Below are positions 1,679-10,060 of a stretch of 35,491 nucleotides of DNA, piece by piece; the stretch's first letter is position 1, and every line of letters begins with the position of its first letter. The translations under genes were made by a program, and so were the position numbers. A model generated the notes under the pieces. That model saw only the letters and a program-made list of their open reading frames with translations, did not search any database and was not told the origin of the DNA. Location of the stretch: NCBI GenBank assembly GCA_937860145.1, contig CALMBF010000128.1, positions 1 through 35,491 on the forward strand, written 5' to 3'. This DNA is from an uncultured Geobacter sp. (GTDB lineage Bacteria > Desulfobacterota > Desulfuromonadia > Geobacterales > DSM-12255).

Positions 1679-3289
1679 TCAGCGTCTGTAGTACTTGCCA
1701 CCGGAAGACCTTAGCAGCCAGCCCTTGAGGGCCGTTATGCTGGTGGCGTTTGCCGGACGGGTCCCTGCAGCTACTGCCGTGGAGTAGGCAGTGAAGGATA
1801 CCTGTGCATTGGGGTCTGTGGTCCCGCCGATTGTACCGGTGGAGGTTGAGTAGGTGTTGGTGCCGGTCTGCAGGTACTGGATGGAGTCGAAGATCAGGCG
1901 ACGTGCGTAGGTCCGGTTATGGACGTGGGCGCCCTTCTCGCGAGTGAGCATGTTGAAGTTGAAGGCCGCACCCATGTTTCTGCTGCCGTCGCTTGTCGGC
2001 CCGACGACCGTCCAGTTCTTGACTGCCGTCGTTGCCGCAGCGGTGGTGTAGAAGTAGGGGTAGACCGTGCTGTAGAAAATGTTACCATTGTTGAGGGTAA
2101 ACGCGAAGAAGTCCATGCCCCTCTCGAAAATCGTTCTCTCTTCTTCATTGAGCAGGGCCATGTCATCTGTACCATGGCAGCCGTAGCAGCCCGTCGCCCC
2201 GGTTGATTTTGCCACTTCGATCGGATCCCAGGTGTGCAAGCCGTTCATGTGGCATGCGACACAGGGCCCGTTGCTGCCGGTAGCGATTCCTGCCGAGGTC
2301 ACATAATTGTTGACCCCGATATTGGAGTGCTGCCAGGTGTTGGTCATCTTGGTGGCAGAGGTGTAGAAGTGGTAGCCGATCTTCTGGTAGAAGGATCCCG
2401 CTGCCCCGAGATAGTGGGAGTTCTTGAAGCTCACGTTAGTAAAGTCGGCAATGGCTTTTACACTCTCTCCGCTCTCTCGTCCCGAGTGACAGGGTATGCA
2501 GAGCCTGGAATCGCCGAGGTTGGTCGCATAGGTTCTGGGTATTCCCGACGGGGTCTTGTAGGGGGTCGAGAATGTGGCAAATGACGCATCGGAGGTTCTT
2601 CTCTTCCAGCTGTAGTCGATGTGACAGGTCTTGCAGCCAGCGACTTCACGTCCGGTCGTGTACTGTCCGAAGAATGTTGACCCTGGAATTTTCAGGCCGT
2701 TGGTCATGTAGTAGACGTAACCGGTTTCCGTGTGGCACCGCTGGCAGGCACTGTTCGCGGGAGCCTTCCACTTGTGGGTGGAGTCAGCCCAGGCAGGCTC
2801 GGTGGTAAGGCCGTGCTTTGATTCAGCCCACTGCTTGTTGATGTTGATCAGCGAGGTCATGTCGTGGGGGTTATGGCAGACGCGGCACCCGTTGGCATCG
2901 TTTGGCGTCACATAGGCAGCTTTTGTCGCGTTGAAGGATACACTGCCGTCGAAGTGGGCAGCACCTGTTTTCATCGTTGCCTGGGTATGGCACTCAAGGC
3001 AGACCGCGTCGAGCGGGTTCGTGATGATGCCGCCGTTCGGGTGGCCAGTCGGTTTGTGGCAGTCTGGGCAGGCCGCGCCGTTACGGGTGTTATGGGCGGA
3101 ATTCAACCACTCCTGGGTAATGAGGTTCCCTGTTACCGGCGACGTTTTTGCGGAATGGCAGCCGATGCATGCCTGTGATTTCTGAAGGGACGCTGTCGAT
3201 GAGGTTTCCCGGTTGTCGCTGCCGCAGCCGGCAAGGCCTGCAAACAGCGCCGCAGTGAACAGAGGAACAATGACTTTGGGATAATTCAT
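1679..3289 (-). CDS. Nine-heme outer-membrane lipoprotein c-type cytochrome
   Basis: A 536-residue secreted lipoprotein: the N-terminus has a hydrophobic segment ending in the lipobox LAGC, so the mature protein starts at lipid-modified C22. Nine CXXCH heme sites are visible at about residues 41, 74, 97, 135, 182, 219, 264, 343 and 368. The last 150 residues have no heme site and are rich in Thr, Ala and Tyr, suggesting a separate surface domain. Start ATG 3289 has AAGGAGG 9 nt upstream. It is the last gene of a three-gene operon, 30 bp after the 8-heme cytochrome, and is followed by a strong terminator. By analogy with Geobacter porin-cytochrome complexes (OmbB-OmaB-OmcB, Ext clusters) it would be the outer-face electron exit. 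Which known outer-surface cytochrome it matches, if any, cannot be told by eye. Confidence 0.93.
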   Translation of the reverse strand: MNYPKVIVPLFTAALFAGLAGCGSDNRETSSTASLQKSQACIGCHSAKTSPVTGNLITQEWLNSAHNTRNGAACPDCHKPTGHPNGGIITNPLDAVCLECHTQATMKTGAAHFDGSVSFNATKAAYVTPNDANGCRVCHNPHDMTSLININKQWAESKHGLTTEPAWADSTHKWKAPANSACQRCHTETGYVYYMTNGLKIPGSTFFGQYTTGREVAGCKTCHIDYSWKRRTSDASFATFSTPYKTPSGIPRTYATNLGDSRLCIPCHSGRESGESVKAIADFTNVSFKNSHYLGAAGSFYQKIGYHFYTSATKMTNTWQHSNIGVNNYVTSAGIATGSNGPCVACHMNGLHTWDPIEVAKSTGATGCYGCHGTDDMALLNEEERTIFERGMDFFAFTLNNGNIFYSTVYPYFYTTAAATTAVKNWTVVGPTSDGSRNMGAAFNFNMLTREKGAHVHNRTYARRLIFDSIQYLQTGTNTYSTSTGTIGGTTDPNAQVSFTAYSTAVAAGTRPANATSITALKGWLLRSSGGKYYRR

Positions 3290-3319
3290 GCGTTCAATCC
3301 TCCTTGTGATGATTAATTG

Positions 3320-3994
3320 TTAATGACAAACCCGACAAGTCTTGTTTGTTCGGGAACTGATATTGCCACCTTTGAAACTCTTCGGATGGGGGTTGACCAT
3401 CGGCCCGCTCTTGGCGCTGTGACAGCGGAGACAGACATCCCCTTCCGGGTGGCAGGTCTGGCATGACTGCAGGTTGCGCCGGGCCTCGGTGCTGTGTTCG
3501 CTGCTCCAAATGAACGACTGGCCGGAACCGCTGGGGAGGTGGGACTTGATCCGCAGGCTCCCTTTGGGGAAACGGTCATGGCACTGGGTGCAGTACTTCT
3601 GGTCGTGGCAGCGATAGCAGGTCTGGGGGTTGTCCAGGGCTTTTATCGGGTGCAGGTTGACGAAGTCGCTGCGATGGCTCTTGGGGACATAATCCCGGCC
3701 GAACGTGTCAAGGGTCAGGTCGGCATTGATCCCTCCTCCCTTGTGACAGTCGAGGCAGTAGGACTGGTCGTGACACTGGGCGCAATTGCTGCCGGATTTG
3801 CCCGCCAGGGTACGGTGGTTCCTGATCCAGTCTCCGTCGTGATTGGGGGCGATACCCTCTGCCTTGTGGCAGCTGTTGCAGTCGCTGATCTTCGAGTCAG
3901 CGTATTCCTTGTGGTTCTGTCGCTGGGCTGCCGCCTGCTGTACGTACAGAACCGACATCATGAGAAGCATTACGACAAACAACTGTTTCTTCAC
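3320..3994 (-). CDS. Eight-heme periplasmic c-type cytochrome
   Basis: A 224-residue protein with a clear signal peptide (MKKQLFVVMLLMMSVLY..., cleavage near QAAAQ) and eight CXXCH sites: CNSCH, CAQCH, CLDCH, CYRCH, CTQCH, CQTCH, CLRCH and CRVCH. That is one heme per about 25 mature residues. The last residue is the histidine of the eighth CXXCH, directly followed by TAA. There is no lipobox, so it is probably soluble in the periplasm or bound to the periplasmic mouth of the porin. Start GTG 3994 has AAAGGGGG at 7 nt. It begins 15 bp after the porin stop. In the conduit model it passes electrons from periplasmic carriers into the barrel. Confidence 0.92.
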   Translation of the reverse strand: MKKQLFVVMLLMMSVLYVQQAAAQRQNHKEYADSKISDCNSCHKAEGIAPNHDGDWIRNHRTLAGKSGSNCAQCHDQSYCLDCHKGGGINADLTLDTFGRDYVPKSHRSDFVNLHPIKALDNPQTCYRCHDQKYCTQCHDRFPKGSLRIKSHLPSGSGQSFIWSSEHSTEARRNLQSCQTCHPEGDVCLRCHSAKSGPMVNPHPKSFKGGNISSRTNKTCRVCH

Positions 3995-4009
3995 AGGTAC
4001 ACCCCCTTT

Positions 4010-5221
4010 CTAGAAGTCGTAATCGAATGTGAGACGGCCCGATACATTCTCGGTGTAACGGGCATTGACATCTTCCTGTATGCGGCCGGAAAGGGCCATG
4101 TTCTTGGCGAACCGGTACTTGCCGCCGATCCAGTAGCGACGGGCGGTCTCGTCATTGGTCAGGGTATCCCGCTGGTAGACGTCGTAGGTGATGCCGCCGG
4201 AAACCTGGGCATCCTTGTTGATCTGATAGTCTGCATCAACAATGACGCCGTTGGTGCTGCCGTAGTACCCCTGGCGGTTGTCGTATTCCACGTTCAGCTT
4301 CAACTGGTCGACGGGGCGTATCCCGACTCCGGCGTGGTAGACGTTGGCAGCGGCCCCTTCGCCGTACCCCTGGCGATTGTAGCCCAGGTTGAGGGATATC
4401 CTGTCGTTCAGGGCGTAGTCGATCCTGAACACGCCCTCCTGATACTCGTTGACCGCAAAGACCGAGTAGATGGAGGTGGTATCGAAGGTGGGGTAACTCT
4501 GGTAGTACTCGGCGGTGAAGACCAGGTCTGAGGTGGGGAAGTACTTTATCCCCCCCTGGACTTCGTTGAAGGTCTCGCTGACCAGGTCGAACCGGGCGTT
4601 GCCGTAAAGCTTGATGCTGTTCAACAGGTACTGTTTGGCGGAGAGGCCGATGGTGTCGCGGGCCGTGTCGCCTTTGACGAATTTCCGCAGCCAGCTTATC
4701 TCGGCATCGGTCTTCTTCATGTCGGTAAGGTACGCGGAGATGCCGAGGTCAGTATTCCATGCGTATCCCGCCTCTCCACTCAACCCGAACACGACGTCAC
4801 GTCCTCCGAAGAGGGTGAACCCGACCGGCCCGACATTCTTCAGGTCGACCTGCAGGCCGTCGATGATGGCGCTGCCCGCGGAGTTGTTGACAAACTGCCT
4901 CCCCATTTTCAGGTCGACCTTGTCGAAGAGATCACGATAATCCGCATAGAAATAGTAGAGCCTGGCAGTGGTGTCATAGTCTTCACCGATCGATTGTGCT
5001 GCCCGGCCGTAGCCGTAGAAGGAGAGTTTCCCCGCCGTGTCAATTTTGGTTACGCCGACACGCAGGTACTCTGCGGCTTCAAATACTCGATTTTCGGTGA
5101 ATTCGTTGTTGTACCAGAGGAACTGGGTGGAGCTCCTACCGTTTATTTCAGCGCCCCATGCGGTTCCCGTGACCAACAGCAGTGCTGCCGTAAGCGCTTT
5201 GCCTACCCTGTTGAGTCCCAT
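4010..5221 (-). CDS. Outer-membrane beta-barrel porin of a porin-cytochrome cluster
   Basis: A 403-residue exported protein. The signal peptide ends in TGTAWGA-E. The mature chain is a run of alternating hydrophobic/polar strands rich in Tyr, Gly and Asp with short turns, and it ends in FDYDF, the terminal aromatic typical of outer-membrane barrels. Start ATG 5221 is preferred over an in-frame TTG at 5242, because AAAGGAGG lies 7 nt before the ATG and the longer version would put that ribosome site inside the coding region and precede the signal peptide with MGKGGQL. It is the first gene of the operon with the 8-heme and 9-heme cytochromes. The role by analogy is an insulated trans-outer-membrane sleeve for the cytochromes. 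No substrate-specific porin family could be recognised. Confidence 0.88.
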   Translation of the reverse strand: MGLNRVGKALTAALLLVTGTAWGAEINGRSSTQFLWYNNEFTENRVFEAAEYLRVGVTKIDTAGKLSFYGYGRAAQSIGEDYDTTARLYYFYADYRDLFDKVDLKMGRQFVNNSAGSAIIDGLQVDLKNVGPVGFTLFGGRDVVFGLSGEAGYAWNTDLGISAYLTDMKKTDAEISWLRKFVKGDTARDTIGLSAKQYLLNSIKLYGNARFDLVSETFNEVQGGIKYFPTSDLVFTAEYYQSYPTFDTTSIYSVFAVNEYQEGVFRIDYALNDRISLNLGYNRQGYGEGAAANVYHAGVGIRPVDQLKLNVEYDNRQGYYGSTNGVIVDADYQINKDAQVSGGITYDVYQRDTLTNDETARRYWIGGKYRFAKNMALSGRIQEDVNARYTENVSGRLTFDYDF

Positions 5222-5274
5222 CAATTGACCTCCTTTCCCCAAAATATAAGTCGATAACAGTTACTTCTCAGCAC
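5221..5274 (-). other. Possible 17-codon upstream reading frame overlapping the porin start
   Basis: In the leader of the porin mRNA a frame from GTG 5274 runs 17 codons and stops at TGA inside a TGATG overlap with the porin ATG. An AAAGGAGG sits 14 nt before the GTG, which is longer than usual. It uses AGA, CGA and ATA codons, which are unusual for this GC-rich genome. It may be a regulatory leader or simply chance. Confidence 0.25.
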
Positions 5275-5346
5275 AACCCGGGTGATGTCCTCCTTTAGCG
5301 ATGAAGTTGTTAGACAACGAGAATTAAAGATTGCAAAACGTAGTCC

Positions 5347-5374
5347 AGTTTATAATAAATCGTTCTGCTGTCAA
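5347..5374 (-). promoter_or_regulatory. Likely sigma-70 promoter of the porin-cytochrome operon
   Basis: Minus strand: TTGACA (5369-5374), 16-bp spacer, TAAACT (5347-5352). It would give a leader of about 120 nt before the porin ATG. The rest of 5222-5512 is AT-richer than its surroundings and holds no gene. I found no GEMM-type riboswitch consensus and no -24/-12 sigma-54 site in it. Confidence 0.5.
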
Positions 5375-8583: not shown

Positions 8584-8829
8584 CTAGGCCTTTGAAACCA
8601 GGATGGTATAGCGGGAGTCATCCTTCTGCACGTCCACCCTGAGCCCCATGTTGCTCGCGGCCTCGGGGATCGTGCTGGTGCAGTCCCGGTTGTCGGTTTT
8701 GAAGGCAAGCTGCACTCTCCCTGCGTTGATCCCCTCGATGTTGCGGTTTATTTCCCGCAGGGCTACCAGCAGGGTCGAAGGGCATATCTGTCCGGAAATA
8801 TCAAACTCTATCGTCTGTACGTTCTCCAT
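8584..8829 (-). CDS. TusA/SirA-family sulfur-carrier protein (TsuB/YeeD-like)
   Basis: An 81-residue TusA-fold protein with DISGQICPSTLLVALREIN, where the cysteine is the expected persulfide carrier. The usual CPxP motif reads CPST here, so its second proline is absent. The C-terminal strand pair (VQLAFKTDNRDC..., LRVDVQKDDSRYTILV) fits the family. ATG 8829 has GGGGGAGG 5 nt upstream; a start at 8853 is possible but unsupported. Pairing of a YeeE/YedE transporter with a small TusA-like protein is the known thiosulfate-uptake arrangement, the small protein being thought to take sulfur from imported thiosulfate. It lies 60 bp after the transporter and 30 bp before the kinase gene. Confidence 0.88.
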   Translation of the reverse strand: MENVQTIEFDISGQICPSTLLVALREINRNIEGINAGRVQLAFKTDNRDCTSTIPEAASNMGLRVDVQKDDSRYTILVSKA

Positions 8830-8889
8830 GGCAACCTCCCCCTTAGTACGCATGTCATATGGATTGAAATGCAGCGGCGTGCCTCCGCA

Positions 8890-9999
8890 TCAGCGGACGA
8901 CGAACCGGGTCAGCAGCTTGGCTCCGAGCCATGTGCCGGGGATCAGTCCGGCGAGGAAGAGCATGCTCTGCAGCGCCATGATCGGCAGCCCGCCGAGCAG
9001 GTGCCACACGTTGCAGCCGGCGGCCATCCGGGAGGCAAGTCCCATCACAACCCCTCCGGCGAGAGCGGAGACATACTGGCGTGGCGGCGCGTTCCAGCGG
9101 ATGCCGAATTCCCCCAACCGCACGGCAGACAAGGTACTCCCCGCAACAATGCCGAAAATAAGGGGGAACTGCACCAGAGCCACGCCGTCCAGCTCTCTCC
9201 CCGGTCCGCCGCGCAATTGGATGCCGGTGAGGGGGTGGGTATACTGCAGCGGCATGGTGTGAAAAAACCTGACGCTCTCGTAGTGGAAGGGACAGACGAC
9301 GGATTCCGCCAGGGCGGCAGCCTTTGCATAGGATGTGGTGATCCCCAGGGGCATGCCGATGACAATGACGGAGACGAGTCCGATCAGGGCGAGGAGGAGC
9401 GCCGCCAGCCACGGTTGCATGGCCCCCTCGGCGTAGACTTTCCGTGACCACCCCTCGCGTCGGTGGATGGTCACGAAGATGGGGAGTGCGGCCAAAATCA
9501 CCACCCCTGCGAGGAGTGACGGGCTGATGTCGAGTGCGTCTGCCAGGGTGATCTTCCCCGTGAGGAGGGTGGCTGCCCTGTTCACGGACACCCACCACGG
9601 TGCTATCTCGGCAAAGAGGGCACTGCCGATGATCATGCCGATGATCGCGACCATGCTGGGTACGCTGCCCGCCCCGGCCTTGTAGAGTGAGCCGACCACG
9701 CACCCTCCTGCCAGCACCATGCCGATGCCGAAGAGCATCCCCCCCAGGGGGGCGGCCAGGGAGGGTGAGACGAGGAGGGGGAACGGGTAGAGGCGGATCA
9801 GGCCGGCCAGCCTGGCGAGCTCGAAGAGGAACATGCTGGAGATGACCAGGAGAAGCAGGATCTGCAGCTTGAACACCGACCTGAAGAGGAAGAAATCGCG
9901 GAACATGGCGGTCAGGCAGAAGTCTGCCCGGTGCATGATGAAGCCGGCGGCTAGGCCGAGAAGGGTGCCGCAGATGAGCATGAACAGCATGTGAGCCAT
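8890..9999 (-). CDS. YeeE/YedE-family (TsuA-type) thiosulfate transporter
   Basis: A 369-residue multi-spanning inner-membrane protein with the family's repeated Gly- and Cys-containing signatures: GFIMHRADFCLTAMFRD near the N-terminus, GMVLAGGCVVGSLYKAG in the middle, and ASRMAAGCNVWHLLGG near the C-terminus. In TsuA the equivalent cysteines relay thiosulfate through the pore, so thiosulfate import is the likely function; a different sulfur compound is possible. ATG 9999 is chosen over an upstream in-frame start at 10041, because the promoter's -10 box lies at 10032-10037 and the longer start would not be transcribed. Downstream are the TusA-like gene and the Cys-rich PAS kinase. Confidence 0.9.
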   Translation of the reverse strand: MAHMLFMLICGTLLGLAAGFIMHRADFCLTAMFRDFFLFRSVFKLQILLLLVISSMFLFELARLAGLIRLYPFPLLVSPSLAAPLGGMLFGIGMVLAGGCVVGSLYKAGAGSVPSMVAIIGMIIGSALFAEIAPWWVSVNRAATLLTGKITLADALDISPSLLAGVVILAALPIFVTIHRREGWSRKVYAEGAMQPWLAALLLALIGLVSVIVIGMPLGITTSYAKAAALAESVVCPFHYESVRFFHTMPLQYTHPLTGIQLRGGPGRELDGVALVQFPLIFGIVAGSTLSAVRLGEFGIRWNAPPRQYVSALAGGVVMGLASRMAAGCNVWHLLGGLPIMALQSMLFLAGLIPGTWLGAKLLTRFVVR

Positions 10000-10031
10000 G
10001 TCGTGTCTCTTCCGGAAAATAGAACAGCCGG

Positions 10032-10060
10032 ATTCTAGCATTGACAGACAATAAAGGCAA
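10032..10060 (-). promoter_or_regulatory. Sigma-70 promoter with extended -10, thiosulfate transporter operon
   Basis: Minus strand: TTGCCT (10055-10060), 17-bp spacer ending in TGC, then TAGAAT (10032-10037). The predicted start of transcription near 10025 leaves about a 25-nt leader before ATG 9999. Confidence 0.65.

Follow-up and report, generated by a model that had tools for sequence, protein, structure and literature searches.

A predicted OmbB-OmaB-OmcB-type porin-cytochrome operon of an uncultured Geobacterales bacterium, with an apparently mosaic outer cytochrome derived from two lineages

A three-gene operon in a 35,491-nucleotide stretch of DNA from an uncultured Geobacter sp. (the whole of this stretch is referred to here as the window) very probably encodes an electron conduit of the Pcc (OmbB-OmaB-OmcB) kind, spanning the outer membrane of a Geobacterales bacterium. 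Its predicted features, namely the gene order, an 8-heme partner, a 22-strand porin and a multiheme outer lipoprotein, fit Pcc group I. The outer cytochrome of this operon appears to combine two lineages, with a G. argillaceus-type N-terminal part and a Geotalea-type C-terminal part. In the family, the barrel and octaheme proteins are the conserved part, and the outer cytochrome is exchangeable as a whole gene and apparently also by segment.

The operon is read on the minus strand, from the barrel gene (4010-5221, minus; ATG start; 403 aa) through the octaheme cytochrome gene (3320-3994, minus; GTG start; 224 aa) to the nine-heme lipoprotein gene (1679-3289, minus; 536 aa). The intergenic gaps are 15 bp between the barrel and octaheme genes and 30 bp between the octaheme and lipoprotein genes, in agreement with the coordinates and spacing put forward in an earlier sequence-only reading of this DNA, and a TTG at 5242 offers an alternative barrel start that would add seven residues. 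The promoter at one end and the strong terminator at the other that the same reading had described were also recovered: a promoter-like site (TTGACA-16-TAAACT; 5374-5347, minus) with 10 of 12 consensus matches is predicted upstream of the barrel gene, and a Rho-independent terminator (1658-1633, minus), composed of an 11-bp stem with 8 GC pairs and a T run, lies 3' of the outer cytochrome gene in a region with a folding z of -4.7. Sites of the looser promoter class (at least 9 of 12 matches) numbered 5, against 1.9 expected.

The operon has unremarkable neighbours. Upstream are rsmI, which is found near the porin-cytochrome cluster in many relatives too, and genes for a prmA-like methyltransferase and a histidine kinase, and downstream there are two short reading frames without assignment. 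No TetR-type regulator gene (OrfR/OrfS) adjoins the operon. In Geobacter sp. AOG1 and H2geo, the same cluster is flanked by genes that share 64-91% identity with the immediate downstream neighbours of the operon, and the site is therefore an inherited one. Elsewhere in the window (8584-10041), the gene for a TusA-like protein adjoins that for a sulphur-transport (PF04143) membrane protein, and the two are likely a sulfur-handling pair.

The barrel protein has a signal peptide and a C-terminal end that reads FDYDF. The final F, corresponding to the terminal Phe recognized earlier, is invariant in 26 relatives, and 64 of the 403 positions are invariant among these 26 members. Identity to the nearest relatives is 69-81%, and relatives with the same gene neighbours reach 73-81%. 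The AlphaFold2 model of the barrel (pLDDT 84) has 22 strands, a predicted count that falls within the 18-22 range of Pcc group I porins, and in structural comparison it matches TonB-dependent receptor barrels best (Z about 21). Because of this strand number and these matches, the barrel is not narrow; the earlier reading had allowed for one too narrow for a conduit, whereas the model is wide. There was no MtrB-type chain among the structural matches listed for the model. Kinship of the barrel with TonB-dependent receptors or with the generic Foldseek matches (such as OprD-type porins and ushers) was considered and not accepted. Residues 245-256 (window positions 4454-4489), around TFDTTSIYSVFA, are among the most conserved in the family, yet have the lowest model confidence; this stretch is possibly a contact with the octaheme partner.

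The generic nature of the Foldseek matches (OprD-type porins and ushers), together with the fact that no Pfam family matched the barrel, would be in keeping with an ordinary solute porin, in which case the two cytochromes would act without the barrel. We regard this as scarcely credible, since 22 strands are predicted rather than 16 or 18, the barrel and octaheme genes adjoin in nearly all clusters, mostly with the same 15-bp gap, and Pcc porins and periplasmic cytochromes form matching phylogenetic groups (PMC4245776).

The octaheme protein, which has a signal peptide and is 71-84% identical to its nearest relatives, contains eight CXXCH motifs, the number originally claimed. All eight are invariant in 22 members, as are H28, H52, H60, H107, H115, H152, H167 and H203; these eight further histidines provide one candidate distal ligand per heme. 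CX3-4CH sites were found in neither cytochrome of the operon. For both cytochromes, PDB sequence searches returned nothing useful, and Pfam and NCBIfam gave generic multiheme matches only, with the DmsE and QrcA names far below the cut-off.

The outer cytochrome presents a lipobox ending LAGC, with its cysteine at residue 22 (G21-C22 being invariant in 18 relatives), and nine CXXCH motifs, which bears out its description as a lipoprotein with nine heme sites. It is 42-51% identical to its nearest relatives, reaching 51% over the full length with the G035 protein, and it aligns over its full length with nine-heme relatives (31-51% identity) and in two parts with 12-heme ones. All nine CXXCH motifs, the lipobox and eight further histidines are invariant in 18 members, and these histidines are also invariant in a set of 27. 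The predicted model of this protein is poor (pLDDT 52).

The sequence-only reading had ascribed to the outer cytochrome a heme-free C-terminal domain of 150 residues. Beyond the last heme site the protein indeed lacks CXXCH, but this part is 164 residues long and is family-wide rather than special. Within it, H457 (codon at 1919-1921, minus) is a histidine in 18/18 and 27/27 nine-heme relatives and a likely candidate distal heme ligand. H457 and the seven other invariant histidines outside CXXCH motifs could ligate eight of the nine outer hemes on the distal side, and no invariant distal histidine for the ninth was found among the nine-heme relatives (18 and 27 sequences). Because it holds this invariant residue, the C-terminal segment is not demonstrably unconnected with heme and, though without CXXCH, it probably takes part in heme binding.

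The barrel family is present in 45 of the 58 relatives searched, about 30 of these 45 being strong full-length homologs with octaheme and lipoprotein cytochromes alongside, and the octaheme protein occurs in 54 of 103 good genomes of the order. We collected 72 complete clusters from relatives and named genomes, all of which have the porin gene first, that of the periplasmic cytochrome second and that of the outer lipoprotein cytochrome third; the three-gene arrangement is not a product of chance, because the same order is found in dozens of genomes. With the nearest intact clusters, some of which are probable relatives of published Pcc clusters, the barrel and octaheme proteins of the window share about 66-84% identity, in support of the porin-cytochrome conduit of three parts that had been proposed. 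The assignment to the OmbB/OmaB/OmcB family of G. sulfurreducens (GSU2737-2739) was drawn through intermediates.

The sequence-only reading had further suggested that 17 hemes and a heme-free C-terminal domain could mark a distinct type of conduit, and that heme number and order are different in the characterised conduits of Geobacter. A new type might be argued from the outer cytochrome, which is only 42-51% identical to its nearest relatives and whose C-terminal segment appears to come from another lineage, but we consider it very improbable. Nine CXXCH motifs are the commonest outer count (28/72 clusters, with 12 hemes in 20/72), the octaheme partner is the rule (55/72), and the heme-free tail is found in nine-heme and 12-heme members alike (medians of 176 aa and 142 aa, respectively). 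In the literature, outer Pcc cytochromes have 1-15 hemes. Furthermore, the same arrangement has been characterised in G. metallireducens, where Gmet0911-0912-0913, likened to the window by description, also encode a porin, an 8-heme and a 9-heme protein in the same order, contradicting the supposed difference in heme number and order (PMC11389400). Deletion of Gmet0911-0913, which was complemented, delays Fe(III)-citrate reduction, slows that of ferrihydrite and lowers that of an anode (PMC11389400). Neither the 8+9 heme arrangement nor the gene order nor the heme-free C-terminus is out of the ordinary in the OmbB-OmaB-OmcB family, in which the 8-heme and 9-heme version of the conduit is common and already published.

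Two of the collected clusters (L037 and L040), which are probably, judging in part by a published description, those of Geotalea uraniireducens Rf4 and G. daltonii FRC-32, have 8- and 9-heme partners like the window, with barrels 69% and 66% identical and octaheme proteins 71% identical to the window's. The C-terminus of the Geotalea outer cytochrome is nearly identical to that of the window (last residues KYYRR/LYYRR), whereas its N-terminal half falls in a different clade, and the Geotalea genomes, unlike that of the window, have a second adjacent cluster. In the published description of Geotalea, GURASL_08460/08470 are adjacent OmaB (8) and OmcB (9) homologs, paired with Geob_1681/1682 and Gura_0988/0989, and two adjacent dissimilar clusters are reported (PMC9961858). 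The Geobacter argillaceus cluster (L070/L033) has a barrel 73% and an octaheme protein 83% identical to those of the window, and its 9-heme outer cytochrome is the nearest to the window's in its N-terminal half, whereas its C-terminal segment is of the other type.

The OmbB-OmaB-OmcB and OmbC-OmaC-OmcC clusters of G. sulfurreducens have the same parts, order and 8-heme periplasmic partner (PMC4245776, PMC4589669). They differ in their 12-heme outer cytochromes, their tandem duplication and the presence of OrfR/OrfS, compared to nine hemes and a single copy in the window; the G. sulfurreducens Pcc complex of porin, 8-heme and 12-heme proteins works in proteoliposomes (PMC4245776). ExtABCD, ExtEFG and ExtHIJKL are porin-cytochrome conduits too, with other periplasmic heme counts and gene orders, and the window does not fit ExtABCD, which is composed of a 12-heme periplasmic protein, a porin, and 5- and 12-heme lipoproteins (PMC6148476). 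MtrCAB, with 28 predicted porin strands and a 10-heme periplasmic partner (PMC4245776), contrasts with the 22 strands and 8 hemes of the window. The OmaB-type gene is present as a single copy in the window's genome, which is 95% complete, and because of this the operon may be the genome's only conduit of the OmbB-OmaB-OmcB family.

Other contigs of the same genome carry further multiheme gene clusters. One of them (L149; G000:C91:12468-15606), a second conduit-like cluster, encodes a 449-aa barrel and 5-heme and 9-heme lipoproteins in an ExtBCD-like arrangement, with no adjoining ExtA-like gene and with a 34-heme protein a few genes off. Another (L147; G000:C127:6818-10572), located behind Rrf2 regulator and cytochrome bd oxidase genes, contains an outer-cytochrome paralog of 641 aa (8 CXXCH), then a 456-aa protein whose sequence is barrel-like and has one CXXCH near the N-terminus, and then a 123-aa monoheme cytochrome. 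This trio, which in its predicted products resembles a fused cytochrome-porin conduit, is conserved as a group in three relatives (L156-L158), with its last two genes on the opposite strand there. A third locus (L148; G000:C164) encodes very large multiheme proteins in a row, with 31, 9, 16 and 19 CXXCH or more.

By analogy with the family, from which its location, complex formation, electron direction and substrate are all taken, the octaheme cytochrome would dock in or under the 22-strand barrel and receive electrons from small periplasmic cytochromes. By way of the barrel, these electrons would then reach the 9-heme lipoprotein at the cell surface, which would reduce extracellular acceptors such as Fe(III). 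The same parts could also serve an inward conduit, with electrons drawn from Fe(II), a cathode or a partner cell: the architecture leaves the direction unfixed, and similar porin-cytochrome clusters are found in bacteria not known as solid Fe(III) reducers (PMC4245776). We deem this unlikely, however, since the characterised Geobacter members of the family run outward (PMC4589669, PMC6148476, PMC11389400) and no feature of the operon points to uptake.

The outer lipoprotein has been described as often replaced while the periplasmic parts are kept (PMC6148476), and the heme-class and cluster numbers obtained here extend that observation. On a tree of barrel and octaheme proteins from 61 clusters, heme class required at least 23 changes, compared to a mean of 29 after shuffling. 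Within the 45 clusters used to compare 9 and 12 outer hemes, 14 changes were counted against 14.3 in shuffles; the distinction between 9 and 12 hemes carries no phylogenetic signal on this tree. A simple three-heme insertion was considered as the source of the difference and rejected: although the two kinds of protein share both ends, the alignment places no clean insert. In Geobacter sp. H2geo (PJFC01000010.1), two clusters about 52 kb apart (L086/L087) encode barrel and octaheme proteins of identical sequence but differ in their outer cytochromes, one of 582 aa with nine CXXCH and the other of 742 aa with nine and one atypical site.

The window's outer cytochrome was compared in 40-residue blocks with both types. 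Over residues 1-160 it is closer to G. argillaceus, over residues 361-536 it is closer to Geotalea (58-100% vs 12-50% identity, taking the nearest of each), and in the blocks between residues 160 and 361 neither type is clearly preferred. Trees of residues 25-270 and of residues 375-536, built from 18 sequences and again from 27, assign the window's protein to two different clades, each supported at 100%, and the C-terminal segment without CXXCH (residues 375-536; 1679-2167, minus) is of Geotalea type, grouping with L037/L040/L041 with support of 100/99. AU tests reject the opposite groupings of the N-terminal and C-terminal parts (p of 2e-84 and, for the C-terminal segment grouped with the G. 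argillaceus type, 1e-47), although these p values are optimistic because the groups were picked after the blocks had been seen; the likelihood differences are large (210 and 183 units). A single history of the window's outer cytochrome is thus rejected by these tests. Strong unequal selection could exaggerate the mosaic pattern, but alone it does not alter clade membership. DNA identity within the C-terminal segment is only 66-77%, which rules out a very recent transfer of a near-identical C-terminus; the exchange, if there was one, is therefore old.

As regards the conduit itself, the window is a further genomic example of an already well-studied family, and the useful part is quantitative. 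What is new here is the lack of phylogenetic signal in 9 versus 12 hemes and the apparently mosaic outer cytochrome. On balance, we lean towards a reading in which the barrel and octaheme proteins form a standard socket, with outer cytochromes exchanged by segment as well as by whole gene, as in the window, where a Geotalea-type segment after the last heme site would have been joined to a G. argillaceus-type heme region. If such segment swaps are real, the acceptor-facing end could change with docking and the heme chain unaltered. Through the heme-count tree, the two H2geo clusters and the mosaic, the published remark on replacement of the exposed part (PMC6148476) becomes testable as a module swap, with the same socket and a different acceptor preference.
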